This document shows positions 23,325 to 28,748 of a DNA stretch of 64,000 nt, piece by piece (the first letter of the stretch is position 1; every line of letters starts with the position of its first letter). The notes under the pieces are model-generated. The model was not told the origin of the DNA. It made no database searches and worked only from the letters and a program-made list of their open reading frames with translations. This DNA comes from a virus: IMG/VR virus record IMGVR_UViG_3300028392_000043, positions 41,653 to 105,652 of that record. One strand, written 5' to 3'. Both the position numbers and the translations under genes were made by a program.

Positions 23325-23355
23325 AACCCTTGCAAACGCAGGGGTTTTTTCTTTT
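23325..23355 (+). terminator. Intrinsic terminator before the endolysin gene
   Basis: A 9-bp stem AACCCTTGC/GCAGGGGTT (23325-23333, 23338-23346) with a 4-base loop, followed by TTTTTTCTTTT. It stands between the rightward promoter (23103-23129) and the endolysin ribosome binding site (AAGGAGAA, 23382-23389). A weak promoter (TTGATA at 23354) might restart transcription after it. Confidence 0.8.
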
Positions 23356-23392: not shown

Positions 23393-23809
23393 ATGGCTTT
23401 ATCACGAATTACCGGTTTTCAAGCATATGCACATATGCATCAATGGATGCTGCAACACAAAAAAGGTTTTCTAGGCCATTGCCATAAAACATGTCAAGAC
23501 GCTTGGGGATTACCAGTTAAATATGCTTCAGCTATTGATGCTTGGAATCATGTGCCAAAGAAACATCAACACACTGATCTGTCTAAGATTCCAGTGGGTT
23601 CGCCAATCTTTATGGATGGTGGCCAATATGGTCACGTATGCCTCCAGTCAGACAAAAAAGGCATTGTTATATCTACAGATGCTCCAACAGCTGATTACAT
23701 TGGTGAAGTGCCATTGGAATGGTTTACCAAGCATTGGGGTAAAAAAGTTCTTGGCTGGGCATCTCAATACAATGACGTTGATTTGCAATTAGACAAAATG
23801 CCTGTTTAA
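23393..23809 (+). CDS. Endolysin-like cysteine peptidase/amidase
   Basis: A 138-residue protein. GHCHKTCQDAWGL (Cys30 or Cys34) and QYGHVCL (His81) are placed like the Cys-His pair of NlpC/P60 and CHAP cell-wall enzymes. VGSPIFMDGG and STDAPTADYIGEVPLEWFTK, plus the ending KVLGWASQYND, match small actinophage lysins that cut peptide bonds of peptidoglycan. No separate wall-binding domain is present. The ATG at 23393 has AAGGAGAA; the frame extends upstream through the terminator but that part is not credible. Small membrane proteins downstream (24246 and 25949) are holin candidates. Confidence 0.7.
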   Translation: MALSRITGFQAYAHMHQWMLQHKKGFLGHCHKTCQDAWGLPVKYASAIDAWNHVPKKHQHTDLSKIPVGSPIFMDGGQYGHVCLQSDKKGIVISTDAPTADYIGEVPLEWFTKHWGKKVLGWASQYNDVDLQLDKMPV

Positions 23810-23817
23810 ACTAGGCA

Positions 23818-23899
23818 GGGGCAGGAAGGTTTCGACTAGACATTAAGACCACACGTTGGTAGTGTCTAGGACCAGAGTTCAATTCTCTGCTGCTCCACA
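23818..23899 (+). ncRNA. tmRNA-like RNA consisting of the tRNA-like domain only
   Basis: GGGGCAG (23818-23824) pairs with CTGCTCC (23890-23896) as a 7-bp acceptor with a G3:U70 wobble, the alanine identity element of tmRNA and tRNA-Ala. GAAGGTTTCGAC (23825-23836) is the conserved 5' tmRNA signature that replaces the D-arm. CTAGACA/TGTCTAG (23836-23842, 23863-23869) forms a P2-like stem. GGAC leads into a T-arm, CAGAG-TTCAATT-CTCTG (23873-23889). Discriminator A97 and CA follow; CCA is not encoded in full. The 20-base loop replaces the usual roughly 300 bases of pseudoknots and tag ORF. The only short frame there (DIKTTRW-stop) does not resemble a degradation tag. It lies between the endolysin and HNH genes. 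Confidence 0.75.
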
Positions 23900-24249: not shown

Positions 24250-24383
24250 GTACATCAGATATCATTACCGGAATGTTATTGGCCTTTTTAGGTGGGTCAA
24301 TGTTTTTGTTAACGCTCATGATGATGTTTATGATATGGGATGATTATCAAGATAACAAGAAAAGACGTAACAGCAAAAAATGA
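24246..24383 (+). CDS. 45-residue membrane protein, holin candidate
   Basis: The frame begins MSTSDIITGMLLAFLGGSMF, continues through a Met/Leu-rich membrane segment and ends with a charged tail (WDDYQDNKKRRNSKK). Both ends overlap neighbours by four bases (ATGA), so it is clearly part of the operon. One hydrophobic helix with a basic tail near an endolysin suits a class III-like holin, but two further candidates follow terL. Confidence 0.6.
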   Translation: MSTSDIITGMLLAFLGGSMFLLTLMMMFMIWDDYQDNKKRRNSKK

Positions 24384-25885
24384 CCGAAGCACCTATCTTT
24401 AGCCTTGTCAGGCCACCAACTAATAAAGAAGAACTATGGTGGACTGTCAAGACTCTATGGGGTGTTGAATTACCTAGAGTACAGGTATGTCCAGATCACA
24501 CGGCTCCTTTTGATGCATTTGCGGAGGCTTATTTTGGTAACGAGTTTAACTGGGTTCTTTGGTATGGTTCGCGTGGTACTGGCAAAAGCTATATGCTTGC
24601 TCTTTTGGCCCTTACTAAAGCTGCTCTTCTTGAAATAAATGTGACACTATTGGGTGGGTCTATGGCTCAGTCACAAAACATTCACGAGCATGTTGAGTTT
24701 TTGACACAACACAAGCATGCACCTGTTCATGCAATTGAATCTATGATTAAAACACAGATTACTTTTACTGGCGGTAATTGGATTAGACCACTACCTGCAT
24801 CACAAAAGACTGTTCGTGGACCTCACCCTCAAATGACATTACTTGATGAGATTGATGAAATGGAACGCAAGATTTATGATGCTGCTATGGGTCAGGCTAT
24901 GACTAAACCCAATGCTAGAGGTGTTGAAGTTGCTGAAATGGTTGTTGCTTCGTCTACATGGCAAAATCCTGTTGGTACTTTTCAGTCTGTTATGGATGAG
25001 GCTTTGGCTAAAGGTATGCCTGTTCGTACATGGTGTTATCGTGAGCAGTTAAAGCCTCATGGGTGGATGGATCCTGATTTTATTGAGCGTAAGCGTATGT
25101 CTGTTCCGGCTGAGATGTTTCGTGTTGAGTATGAGCTTGGTGAGCCTGCTGGTGGTTCACGTGCGTTTGATTTAGAGAAACTTAATAAGGCTTTTGTTGA
25201 TTTAGAGATTGTTGATGAGCGTCATTCGGCTAATGATGATGAGTGGGTATTCGAACGACCTGTACCTACTGCTACTTATTCTGCTGGTGCCGATTGGGCT
25301 AAAGAGCAGGATAAGACTGTTATTGCTGTGTTTAGGCTTGATGAAAGTATTAGACGGCTTGTTTATTATCGTAGGTTTAATCGTACTGATTGGCCAACAA
25401 TGATTGGCGTGTTTAATCGAGTAACTACCGAGTATCAAGCTATGGCGGCGCATGATGCTACAGGTATTGGCAATGTTGTTCATGACATGGTTGATGAGCG
25501 AGTTATTAAATTTACTATGTCTTCTAATAAACGTACAGAGATGTTGACTAATTACATTACGGCTGTTGAGCAAGGTCGCTATAAGTTGCCTCGTAATACT
25601 CCTGCGTACCTACAGCATAAGTCAACTACGGTTGAGGAAGTCTTTGGTGGTGGCGGTTGGAACTCTCATCTGTCTGATGATGTGTGTGCTTTTGCTTTGG
25701 CTCATCATGCTGCAGAGCGTATGGCTCCGCCGGCAGCTGGTGAGGGCGTTAAGAAGACAGAGTATGCTCCTGAAAAGTTTAAAGACATTACTCCTGTGTA
25801 TGAGGATGATGGTCGTTATGTTACGCAAGTGGGTGCTGTTACTGTTAAAGATGATAGCGGTGTTGGAGTTTTTAATCTTTTCTAA
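24380..25885 (+). CDS. terL: Terminase large subunit
   Basis: A 501-residue packaging motor. Walker A is YGSRGTGKSY (Lys69) and Walker B MTLLDEIDEM (about 153-162), so the ATPase half is complete. The nuclease half has AGADWAKEQDKTVIAVFR (Asp near 304), AHDATGIGNVV and SHLSDDVCAFALAHH (last Asp), the RNase H-like triad that cuts the concatemer. It docks on the portal encoded 3.5 kb downstream and pumps DNA into the prohead. Its small-subunit partner is probably at 13471-13971 on the other strand. The start overlaps the small membrane gene by four bases. Confidence 0.93.
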   Translation: MTEAPIFSLVRPPTNKEELWWTVKTLWGVELPRVQVCPDHTAPFDAFAEAYFGNEFNWVLWYGSRGTGKSYMLALLALTKAALLEINVTLLGGSMAQSQNIHEHVEFLTQHKHAPVHAIESMIKTQITFTGGNWIRPLPASQKTVRGPHPQMTLLDEIDEMERKIYDAAMGQAMTKPNARGVEVAEMVVASSTWQNPVGTFQSVMDEALAKGMPVRTWCYREQLKPHGWMDPDFIERKRMSVPAEMFRVEYELGEPAGGSRAFDLEKLNKAFVDLEIVDERHSANDDEWVFERPVPTATYSAGADWAKEQDKTVIAVFRLDESIRRLVYYRRFNRTDWPTMIGVFNRVTTEYQAMAAHDATGIGNVVHDMVDERVIKFTMSSNKRTEMLTNYITAVEQGRYKLPRNTPAYLQHKSTTVEEVFGGGGWNSHLSDDVCAFALAHHAAERMAPPAAGEGVKKTEYAPEKFKDITPVYEDDGRYVTQVGAVTVKDDSGVGVFNLF

Positions 25886-26519: not shown

Positions 26520-28748
26520 ATGAGTAAAAAACCTGCTGGTCGTCCTTATCCTAATCTTGTGGATAACATGGCTGTTAGTAAGGCGCTTTTTAATAAAGGA
26601 AAAATTGCAAGTGCAGTTAAAAATAGATATGCTCGTCCTCTTGCTGATAATGAGTTTTATCATGGTACTAACTTAAAATCTGCTACAAAGATTAAAACTC
26701 AAGGTTTTAAAACAGTTGACCCTAGAAAAAAAAATTATGAGCCTAGTAGTCACTTAAGATCCGCTGGGAGAAGTTCCACTGGATTTGGTCGCCCAATACC
26801 TGAAGGAAACATGGGTCCTGGCGCTTATATGACAAAAAACAAATCTCACGCTAAAAAATATGCAAAAGGTAAGTCTGGATTGCCAGCTGTTGTTCGATTG
26901 CAAGTACCTGAAAACACTAAATTTGTAGAAGTAGATCTTCATGATAAAAATCTAATTGCTTATGTTAACCATGGCAGAAAATCAAATGCTACACATAGTA
27001 TTAATGGCCGAATTGCTAATTATGTTAAAAGAAATCATAATACTCATGGTATTTATGATGGTGATTATTATTATGGTCAAACTAAGCACGTAAAAATGGT
27101 TTCTGGCTTAAAACCTGTAAATATTGCTACCGATACTACTGCAGTCGGCGGTGCTGGCTATTACGGCAACAAAAAACTAAACAGTAAGCCTGTTAGTAAG
27201 TCTTGGGAAGAAGTATCTAAAGTATTTCCTCAACGGGCTATCCTCACGCAAGGTACGCGTAAGACACGAGTTATGGTGCATTATGAATATTCACCTACAC
27301 ATTGGGGAATTATTCATCCTACTGAAGGGCAGCGTGTAGCACACAAAGATAGTATTAGGTTTATTCCAAATAAAAAGCCTAAGAGTCCTGGTCCTGATTT
27401 GTTTGGCGAACCTTTGAAAAAGTCGATGGAGTATAGTGTAGTTATGAATCAGTCCCGTTTTGGAAATGCTAGCAACGTAGCAAAATCACTAGATGATTAT
27501 TGGAAAAAAGAGCAGGCCGAGAAAGAGGCTGCTCATCGTTTGCAAATTAAAGAAACACATGCAATTAGCCGCAATGCTTTTAAACAAGGCGTTAAAGGCG
27601 GTTTGATTATTGGTGTACCTACTGCTGCGGGCGCTACTTATGGCACTATGAAAGCTAAAAAGAAACTTTCTGAAGTACGTAAAGCATCTCTGGGCGCTGG
27701 AAAAATCTTTGAAGGTGCTGCTAACGCTGCGCATCACGCAACTCCTGTTGGTCATGGTTCTGGTGATTTTAGTGCTGAGATGCGTCGCAGTATTCGTGAG
27801 CATGCTGAGCGCACGAGGGCAGCAGCTAATAAGCGTGGTAAGGAACTTGTTTTACGTCCTAAGCCAGGTGAACTTGTTGATACTCGCCCACCTGCGCCTA
27901 AGCCTGCTAAAAAAGGTAGAGAACTTGTTCGTTTGAAACAGGACGTTCCTACTGCTAGTGTCTCTGCGCCTCGCCCAATTAAAATTACTCGCCCGATTAA
28001 AATTACTCGTGGACCTGCTGCTGGCGCAGGAACAAGAGCGCCTTCTGTAGCACCTGCTGTAGCACCTGCTGCGGCGGCACCTAAAGGTGCTCCTGGCTTA
28101 GCGCATTTTGATGAAGGTGTTAAAACTAAGAGTTATGTTCCACATGCTTTGGCTGCTTCTGCTGCGGGTATTACTGGTGGCGTGGCTATTACTGATCCTG
28201 AGAAGCGTAAGAATTGGATTAATGGCGCTAAAAGCCAAATTCATGAGTTGACTAAGGCTGATGAGTACGATGCTGCAGGTAATTTAAAGCAGCCTGCAAA
28301 AATTTCTGGCAACACTGCTATGGGTCTTGCTGGCGCGGGTACGGTTGCTTTGGGTGCGCGTACTCTTGGGCGTGCAGGTAATCTTCCTTATACTGCAGCA
28401 CGTAATGCTAATTTTGCTAACAATAATTTGATGCAACAACGTACTTTGCATGCTGATAAAGTAGCTAATACTCAGGCTGCCCAAGCTAAAGCTGCTAAGG
28501 CGCGTATGCCTTGGACTAAGGCTATGGCTAATAAAAATGTTGACCGAGCTGTGTATCATGAATCTCGTCAAGACCAGCGTCTTATTGCTCAAGAAGCTAA
28601 GACCGCTGAAGCGCATGCTTTGGCACATGCTGTTAAGCCTCGTATGAAGATGATGCGTAATGGTGGCATGGGTATGGTTGCTGGCGGTTCTTTGTTGGCT
28701 GCTGGTGCTTTGGTTAATGCTGGTAAAAAGCGTGAGGTTCCACAGTAA
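26520..28748 (+). CDS. Large putative virion/ejection protein with ADP-ribosyltransferase-like domain
   Basis: A 742-residue protein. Residues 44-190 show the order of H-Y type ADP-ribosyltransferases: FYHGTNLKSATKIKTQGF (His48), GPGAYMTKNKSHAKKYAKG (Tyr103) and YYYGQTKHVKMV in the place of the third residue, where Gln rather than Glu stands. Such enzymes move ADP-ribose from NAD to proteins or DNA; T4 injects one (Alt) with its genome. After residue 350 come several Gly/Ala-rich segments that could cross membranes, e.g. GGLIIGVPTAAGATYG and GGMGMVAGGSLLAAGALVNA, separated by basic stretches. Between lies an 18-base tandem repeat (RPIKIT twice). GGAGG precedes the ATG. It stands between the holins and portal, so a virion role is likely but unproven. 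Confidence 0.55.
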   Translation: MSKKPAGRPYPNLVDNMAVSKALFNKGKIASAVKNRYARPLADNEFYHGTNLKSATKIKTQGFKTVDPRKKNYEPSSHLRSAGRSSTGFGRPIPEGNMGPGAYMTKNKSHAKKYAKGKSGLPAVVRLQVPENTKFVEVDLHDKNLIAYVNHGRKSNATHSINGRIANYVKRNHNTHGIYDGDYYYGQTKHVKMVSGLKPVNIATDTTAVGGAGYYGNKKLNSKPVSKSWEEVSKVFPQRAILTQGTRKTRVMVHYEYSPTHWGIIHPTEGQRVAHKDSIRFIPNKKPKSPGPDLFGEPLKKSMEYSVVMNQSRFGNASNVAKSLDDYWKKEQAEKEAAHRLQIKETHAISRNAFKQGVKGGLIIGVPTAAGATYGTMKAKKKLSEVRKASLGAGKIFEGAANAAHHATPVGHGSGDFSAEMRRSIREHAERTRAAANKRGKELVLRPKPGELVDTRPPAPKPAKKGRELVRLKQDVPTASVSAPRPIKITRPIKITRGPAAGAGTRAPSVAPAVAPAAAAPKGAPGLAHFDEGVKTKSYVPHALAASAAGITGGVAITDPEKRKNWINGAKSQIHELTKADEYDAAGNLKQPAKISGNTAMGLAGAGTVALGARTLGRAGNLPYTAARNANFANNNLMQQRTLHADKVANTQAAQAKAAKARMPWTKAMANKNVDRAVYHESRQDQRLIAQEAKTAEAHALAHAVKPRMKMMRNGGMGMVAGGSLLAAGALVNAGKKREVPQ
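27972..28007 (+). repeat. 18-bp tandem repeat in coding sequence
   Basis: Two copies of CGCCC(A/G)ATTAAAATTACT (27972-27989 and 27990-28007) encode RPIKIT twice in a proline-rich linker of the large protein. The copies differ at one silent base. It is a likely slippage-prone spacer. Confidence 0.8.

Follow-up and report, generated by a model that had tools for sequence, protein, structure and literature searches.

A compact tmRNA tRNA-like domain without a tag reading frame, found at hundreds of places in viral contigs, with near-invariant alanine identity elements

Introduction

A short RNA gene in a viral contig raises the question of whether a phage can encode a tmRNA reduced to its tRNA-like domain (TLD), and of what such an RNA might do during infection. 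The original prediction for this locus held that no tagless minimal tmRNA had been described in phages. This was wrong: mycobacteriophage DS6A (tmID 11587) has a TLD-only tmRNA (PMC4131195, citing Mao 2009; PMC11915505), and the kind is already known from this one phage. In the curated 2025 tmRNA database, nine of 97,179 tmRNAs are of standard order and lack a CDS, DS6A being the one phage case named (PMC11915505), and an ARAGORN-based survey reported tmRNA in 402 phages (PMC9004378). The RNA considered here lies in the window, by which we mean the whole 64,000-nt stretch analysed, from a virus record of 105,652 bp.

The RNA and its genomic setting

An 80-nt RNA at positions 23818–23897 (+ strand) of the window folds as a complete tmRNA TLD (MFE −29.8 kcal/mol, z −3.0). 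The predicted anatomy, a 7-bp acceptor with G3:U70, a D-loop signature, GGAC, a T-arm and a 7-bp P2, was present at the expected place (Table 1). All seven acceptor pairs form, G3:U70 included, and the seven base pairs of P2 include one G-U. The 5' acceptor strand precedes the 3' strand, as in standard order and not as in permuted (two-piece) tmRNAs, and the gene has no encoded CCA, A73 being followed by CAC.

Table 1. Features of the compact RNA locus, in window coordinates
Feature	Position	Strand	Remarks
Terminator-like hairpin	23325..23346	+	Just before the ORF preceding the RNA
Upstream ORF, 138 aa, co-oriented	23393..23809	+	ATG at 23393 with ribosome-binding site; weak match to phrog_12298
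Acceptor stem, 5' strand GGGGCAG	23818..23824	+	G3 of G3:U70
D-loop region GAAGGTTTCGAC	23825..23836	+	tmRNA-type, no D stem; motif GGTTTCGAC at 23828-23836 persists in most relatives retrieved without fixing the D-loop
P2 stem, 5' strand TAGACAT	23837..23843	+	7 covarying pairs
A-rich internal loop and cap hairpin ACCA-CACGT-TGGT	23844..23861	+	In place of tmRNA tag, pseudoknots and linker
P2 stem, 3' strand GTGTCTA	23862..23868	+	
GGAC lead and T-arm	23869..23889	+	GGAC 23869-23872; T-arm 23873-23889, 5-bp stem, TTCAATT loop
Acceptor stem, 3' strand CTGCTCC, and discriminator	23890..23897	+	CTGCTCC 23890-23896 (U70); A73 at 23897
HNH endonuclease ORF, 109 aa	23920..24249	+	Downstream of the RNA; phrog_1872, E 5e-23
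Terminase large subunit	24380..25885	+	phrog_2, E 4e-17

The Rfam tmRNA model (RF00023) scored the window RNA at 57.3 bits (E 2.4e-20; cut-off 47), in an alignment that spans model ends 1–374 and in which 292 of the 374 positions, all central, are deleted. The pseudoknots and the mRNA-like domain, which correspond to these missing positions, are absent, and neither ARAGORN nor the 32-nt gap between the D-loop motif and GGAC revealed a tag reading frame with resume codon and stop. The features that mark the TLD of tmRNA are all there (7-bp acceptor, G3:U70, A73, D-loop GGNUUCGAC without a D stem, T-arm). The RNA is thus phage-encoded, of standard order, with little beyond the TLD and no CDS, which is what defines a TLD-only phage tmRNA (PMC4131195), and the original description of a tmRNA TLD without tag or pseudoknots was borne out.

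The RNA begins 8 nt past the stop of the upstream ORF and ends about 22 nt before the HNH ORF, and it is probably part of a longer transcript, in which case it would need tRNA-type processing. It lies near the start of a rightward packaging and structural block, in which terminase and portal genes follow, and genes for DnaB helicase and primase are found to its left on the opposite strand. BLAST of the RNA and its 300-bp surroundings against known phages returned only tRNA T-arms or chance matches, and the large neighbour at 26520–28748 had no match in phage records. The sister record IMGVR_UViG_3300027749_000047 carries the identical RNA and flanks and, 67 kb away, a second copy (L041), in which one cap pair is G:C in place of A:U, a compensatory change, and one P2 pair is G-U in place of G-C. 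In several loci (the window, L071, L038 and others), HNH endonuclease ORFs of at least two families lie no more than tens of bases away from the compact RNA, perhaps reflecting homing next to tRNA-like genes.

Relatives in viral and bacterial genomes

In IMG/VR viral contigs, exact pattern scans identified 308 occurrences of the compact layout, corresponding to 200 distinct sequences; these contigs are redundant, and relatedness still inflates the counts even though distinct sequences are used. The first scan yielded at least 120 stretches, the scans with the GGTTTCGAC form 104, 42, 73 and 59 stretches according to T-loop type, and that with the GGATTCGAC form 31. Acceptor pairing was never part of the patterns, yet the acceptor was fully paired in 306 of the 308 matches, and chance origin is excluded on this ground. 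Most scans fixed the GGTTTCGAC D-loop, GGAC and the T-loop, so the constancy of these elements is partly by construction. Their only freer test, for the D-loop and GGAC, was a set of 34 sequences retrieved by the cap and T-loop alone (the T-loop being fixed there), in which most D-loops were of the GGNNTCGAC form and 23 sequences had GGAC.

In bacterial and archaeal genomes, 257 Gb in all, the same pattern matched at only 12 places, and six of these copies are well formed. The remaining six GTDB matches (two from Microvirga, three cyanobacterial and one from Rubrobacter) were set aside because their acceptors were poorly paired. Every genome with a well-formed compact copy also holds a separate RF00023 match of 367–398 nt (one of them weak), and the stems of the compact copy and the long ssrA differ in all four genomes whose ends were compared. 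Three cultivated Streptomyces phages, BRock, pSt2308 and LuckySocke (L165, L166 and L167), have a compact copy inside their tRNA arrays, and GiJojo and Alone3 have stretches matching the compact pattern. In the public records of BRock, pSt2308 and LuckySocke the compact gene is unannotated, although the surrounding tRNAs are annotated.

The RF00023 cut-off was exceeded in 43 of 45 virus records with the compact RNA; all of the above-cut-off matches were compact, and no full-length tmRNA above the cut-off was found in these 45 records. ARAGORN called no gene at the window RNA and overlooked nearly all of the relatives scanned, which would explain why surveys have missed the compact form. Two of its full-tmRNA calls (L076, 5905–6228, and L122, 2976–3318) overlap compact RNAs and have odd tags; they are probably spurious extensions, able to mislead tag lists. 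One locus (L352, 985–1024) retains the conserved cap and T-arm, but its acceptor does not pair and the D-loop motif is missing; this copy is possibly decaying.

Selection on the structure and on alanine identity

All four helices covary among relatives. The covariation score for 36 aligned sequences was 0.706, against a shuffle mean of 0.165 (none of 500 shuffles reached the observed value), and it fell to 0.160 or less when the alignment was slid by 1–3 columns; changes on both sides were seen in 18 of the 22 pairs of these sequences. These statistics refer to a same-spacing subset, since the all-length MAFFT alignment misplaced the acceptor, and figures for the full set are segment-wise counts. 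P2 was paired in 90% of cells in the first 121 distinct sequences, compared with 43% in shuffles. The cap hairpin is variable and is not essential, because a few members (61–68 nt) have a capped P2 only. A hidden mini-tag in the cap loop was considered and rejected: a GCN...stop arrangement occurred inside the loop in 12% of the relatives and in 13% with the loop shuffled.

Alanyl-tRNA synthetase recognises its RNAs mainly by G3:U70. This pair was present in 199 of the 200 distinct sequences; the one without it (L027) looks like an L006-type sequence with a deletion. A73 was present in all 200, while the neighbouring pairs 4:69, 5:68 and 6:67 each come in five to six types. With position 70 left free in the scans, U70 was found opposite G3 in 111 of 112 cases, and the set retrieved by the cap and T-loop had G3:U70 and A73 throughout (34/34), with a full acceptor in 33. 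The invariance of G3:U70 and A73 beside freely varying acceptor pairs makes selection for alanine charging very likely, and charging of the compact RNA with alanine is strongly predicted. G3:U70 would be superfluous in an RNA that merely soaked up SmpB, from which we infer charging in the cell; this near-invariant alanine identity argues for a role beyond that of an SmpB sponge.

The RNA could also be explained in two other ways. The T-arm and acceptor are common to tRNAs, and the gene might be taken for an unusual or broken canonical tRNA. However, the tRNA model RF00005 gave 11.5 bits, short of its cut-off of 29, for the T-arm only (model positions 43–63), as against the tmRNA score given above, and the RNA has neither a D stem nor a normal anticodon arm, nor does ARAGORN call a gene there. 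The comparison of covariance models proposed with the original prediction thus came down on the side of tmRNA, and the chance that this is a canonical tRNA, which these scores refute, is negligible. Phages are also known to integrate into ssrA and to carry pieces of it (PMC9004378), and the RNA might be an attachment site or a decayed piece of host ssrA carried by a phage. Against this, the two TLD ends meet in a short capped stem, every helix shows compensatory changes, hundreds of relatives lie in many unrelated neighbourhoods, and the stems differ from those of the ssrA of the same genome where compared. A decayed fragment is therefore refuted for the family and very improbable for the locus. 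The suggestion that compensatory changes should be sought in P2 of related phages was rewarded with seven covarying pairs, and the view that this is no decayed ssrA copy has stood, the relatives covarying throughout and the compact copies of cellular genomes having stems unlike those of the co-resident ssrA where compared.

Relationship to known tmRNAs and putative function

The window RNA shares with standard bacterial tmRNA (RF00023) the G3:U70 acceptor, A73, the D-loop, P2, GGAC and the T-arm, but differs from it in having no tag ORF and no pseudoknots. The tmRNAs of the mycobacteriophage Bxz1 group, the Streptomyces BE phages, Melnitz and Pseudomonas phage SM1, full-length or permuted, have the same TLD signatures and, unlike the compact RNA, carry a tag and message domain. 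The CDS-less tmRNAs of mitochondria and Mallomonadaceae plastids (about 65 bp in plastids; PMC11915505) likewise consist of a TLD without a tag frame; they are, however, organellar and in mitochondria usually permuted, whereas the window RNA is viral and of standard order. The closest counterpart is the DS6A RNA, which is also a phage-encoded TLD of standard order with no tag frame, and with which the comparison is by description only; that RNA comes from one phage, whereas the compact form recurs hundreds of times among unrelated phages. A DS6A-like molecule is reported to inhibit tmRNA strongly whether or not it can be charged (PMC4131195, citing Mao 2009); PMC11915505 gives E. coli as the organism in which this was seen. 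In the literature searched, which lay mostly outside subscription journals and preprints, we found no report of the breadth and strict alanine identity described here.

No gene for SmpB, Pth or RF-1/ArfB was found in the 45 virus records with the compact RNA; the one RF-1 domain hit came from the Tunturiibacter phage Tunturi_4, where the tmRNA is permuted and not compact. Virus records may be fragments, so these absences are suggestive only. Nor did any family recur among the nearest neighbours of the 62 neighbourhood groups. With neither full tmRNA nor SmpB in the 45 records and no recurrent neighbour, the RNA would act with host factors, and it looks like a stand-alone module relying on host proteins.

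Judging from its sequence features, we lean slightly towards the compact RNA being an alanylated tagless decoy, one that would prevent tagging by engaging SmpB and EF-Tu of the host as well as stalled ribosomes. The RNA would be cut from a longer transcript by host tRNA-processing enzymes, receive CCA and be charged with alanine by the host AlaRS. Once bound to host SmpB and EF-Tu, it would enter stalled ribosomes, competing with host tmRNA for SmpB and for the ribosomes themselves, and might take the stalled peptide and add one alanine at most, offering no resume codon or tag. During infection, the net effect would be that host trans-translation is suppressed, and with it the tagging of incomplete proteins and their proteolysis. 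Such competition seems likeliest because the DS6A-like TLD molecule strongly inhibits tmRNA, and by this analogy poisoning or diverting host trans-translation would be the likeliest function.

The decoy fits the presence of all the TLD parts and nothing of the tag domain, but charging identity is almost invariant here, though the published inhibitor needed no charging, and tagless organelle tmRNAs seem to owe their retention to rescue and not to inhibition. Tag-free rescue is the main rival. Here the charged TLD and SmpB would enter stalled ribosomes and take the peptide, with recycling by drop-off and host peptidyl-tRNA hydrolase or ArfB, and ribosomes would be freed without marking phage proteins for proteolysis. 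It has been proposed for tagless mitochondrial tmRNAs, which persist with SmpB (PMC11915505). The strict alanine identity suits an active charged role at least as well as it suits a decoy. Rescue is nevertheless rather unlikely in our judgement, given the inhibition of tmRNA by a like molecule and the lack of phage Pth or RF-1/ArfB in 49 records other than that of Tunturi_4. Furthermore, we know of no way for a TLD to complete release without a resume codon. The conserved alanine identity and tRNA fold, together with the several copies within phage tRNA arrays, would also be expected of an RNA acting away from the ribosome, for example by baiting host defence systems, RNases or toxins that modify tRNA, or by supplying another enzyme with Ala-RNA. 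The tmRNA-type D-loop and the P2 that replaces the D-arm and anticodon point instead to SmpB and not to general tRNA enzymes, and we consider such a carrier improbable.

Extended to the family, the sequence evidence gives about an even chance that a tagless tmRNA charged with alanine serves hundreds of unrelated phages as a general counter-measure to, or a replacement for, host trans-translation. If this is true, ribosome rescue would be a common battleground between phages and hosts that has been missed by gene finders demanding a tag. LuckySocke grows on S. lividans JI 1326, which makes the role of the compact RNA directly testable.

Permuted tmRNAs in phages

Pairing of the compact RNA with a phage ArfB-like release factor, an idea suggested by Tunturi_4, was dropped, since the tmRNA of that phage is permuted and RF-1 domains are absent from all the records with the compact RNA. 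Permuted tmRNAs were also observed in Pseudomonas phage SM1 (L168, 1474–1773) and at L171, L173 and L174; the T-arm match is unannotated. In Tunturi_4 itself (L172, PP885687; 1118–1465 and 1470–1879), a gene for a 115-aa RF-1 domain protein (ArfB-like) lies directly upstream of the permuted tmRNA, placing two ribosome-rescue factors side by side.
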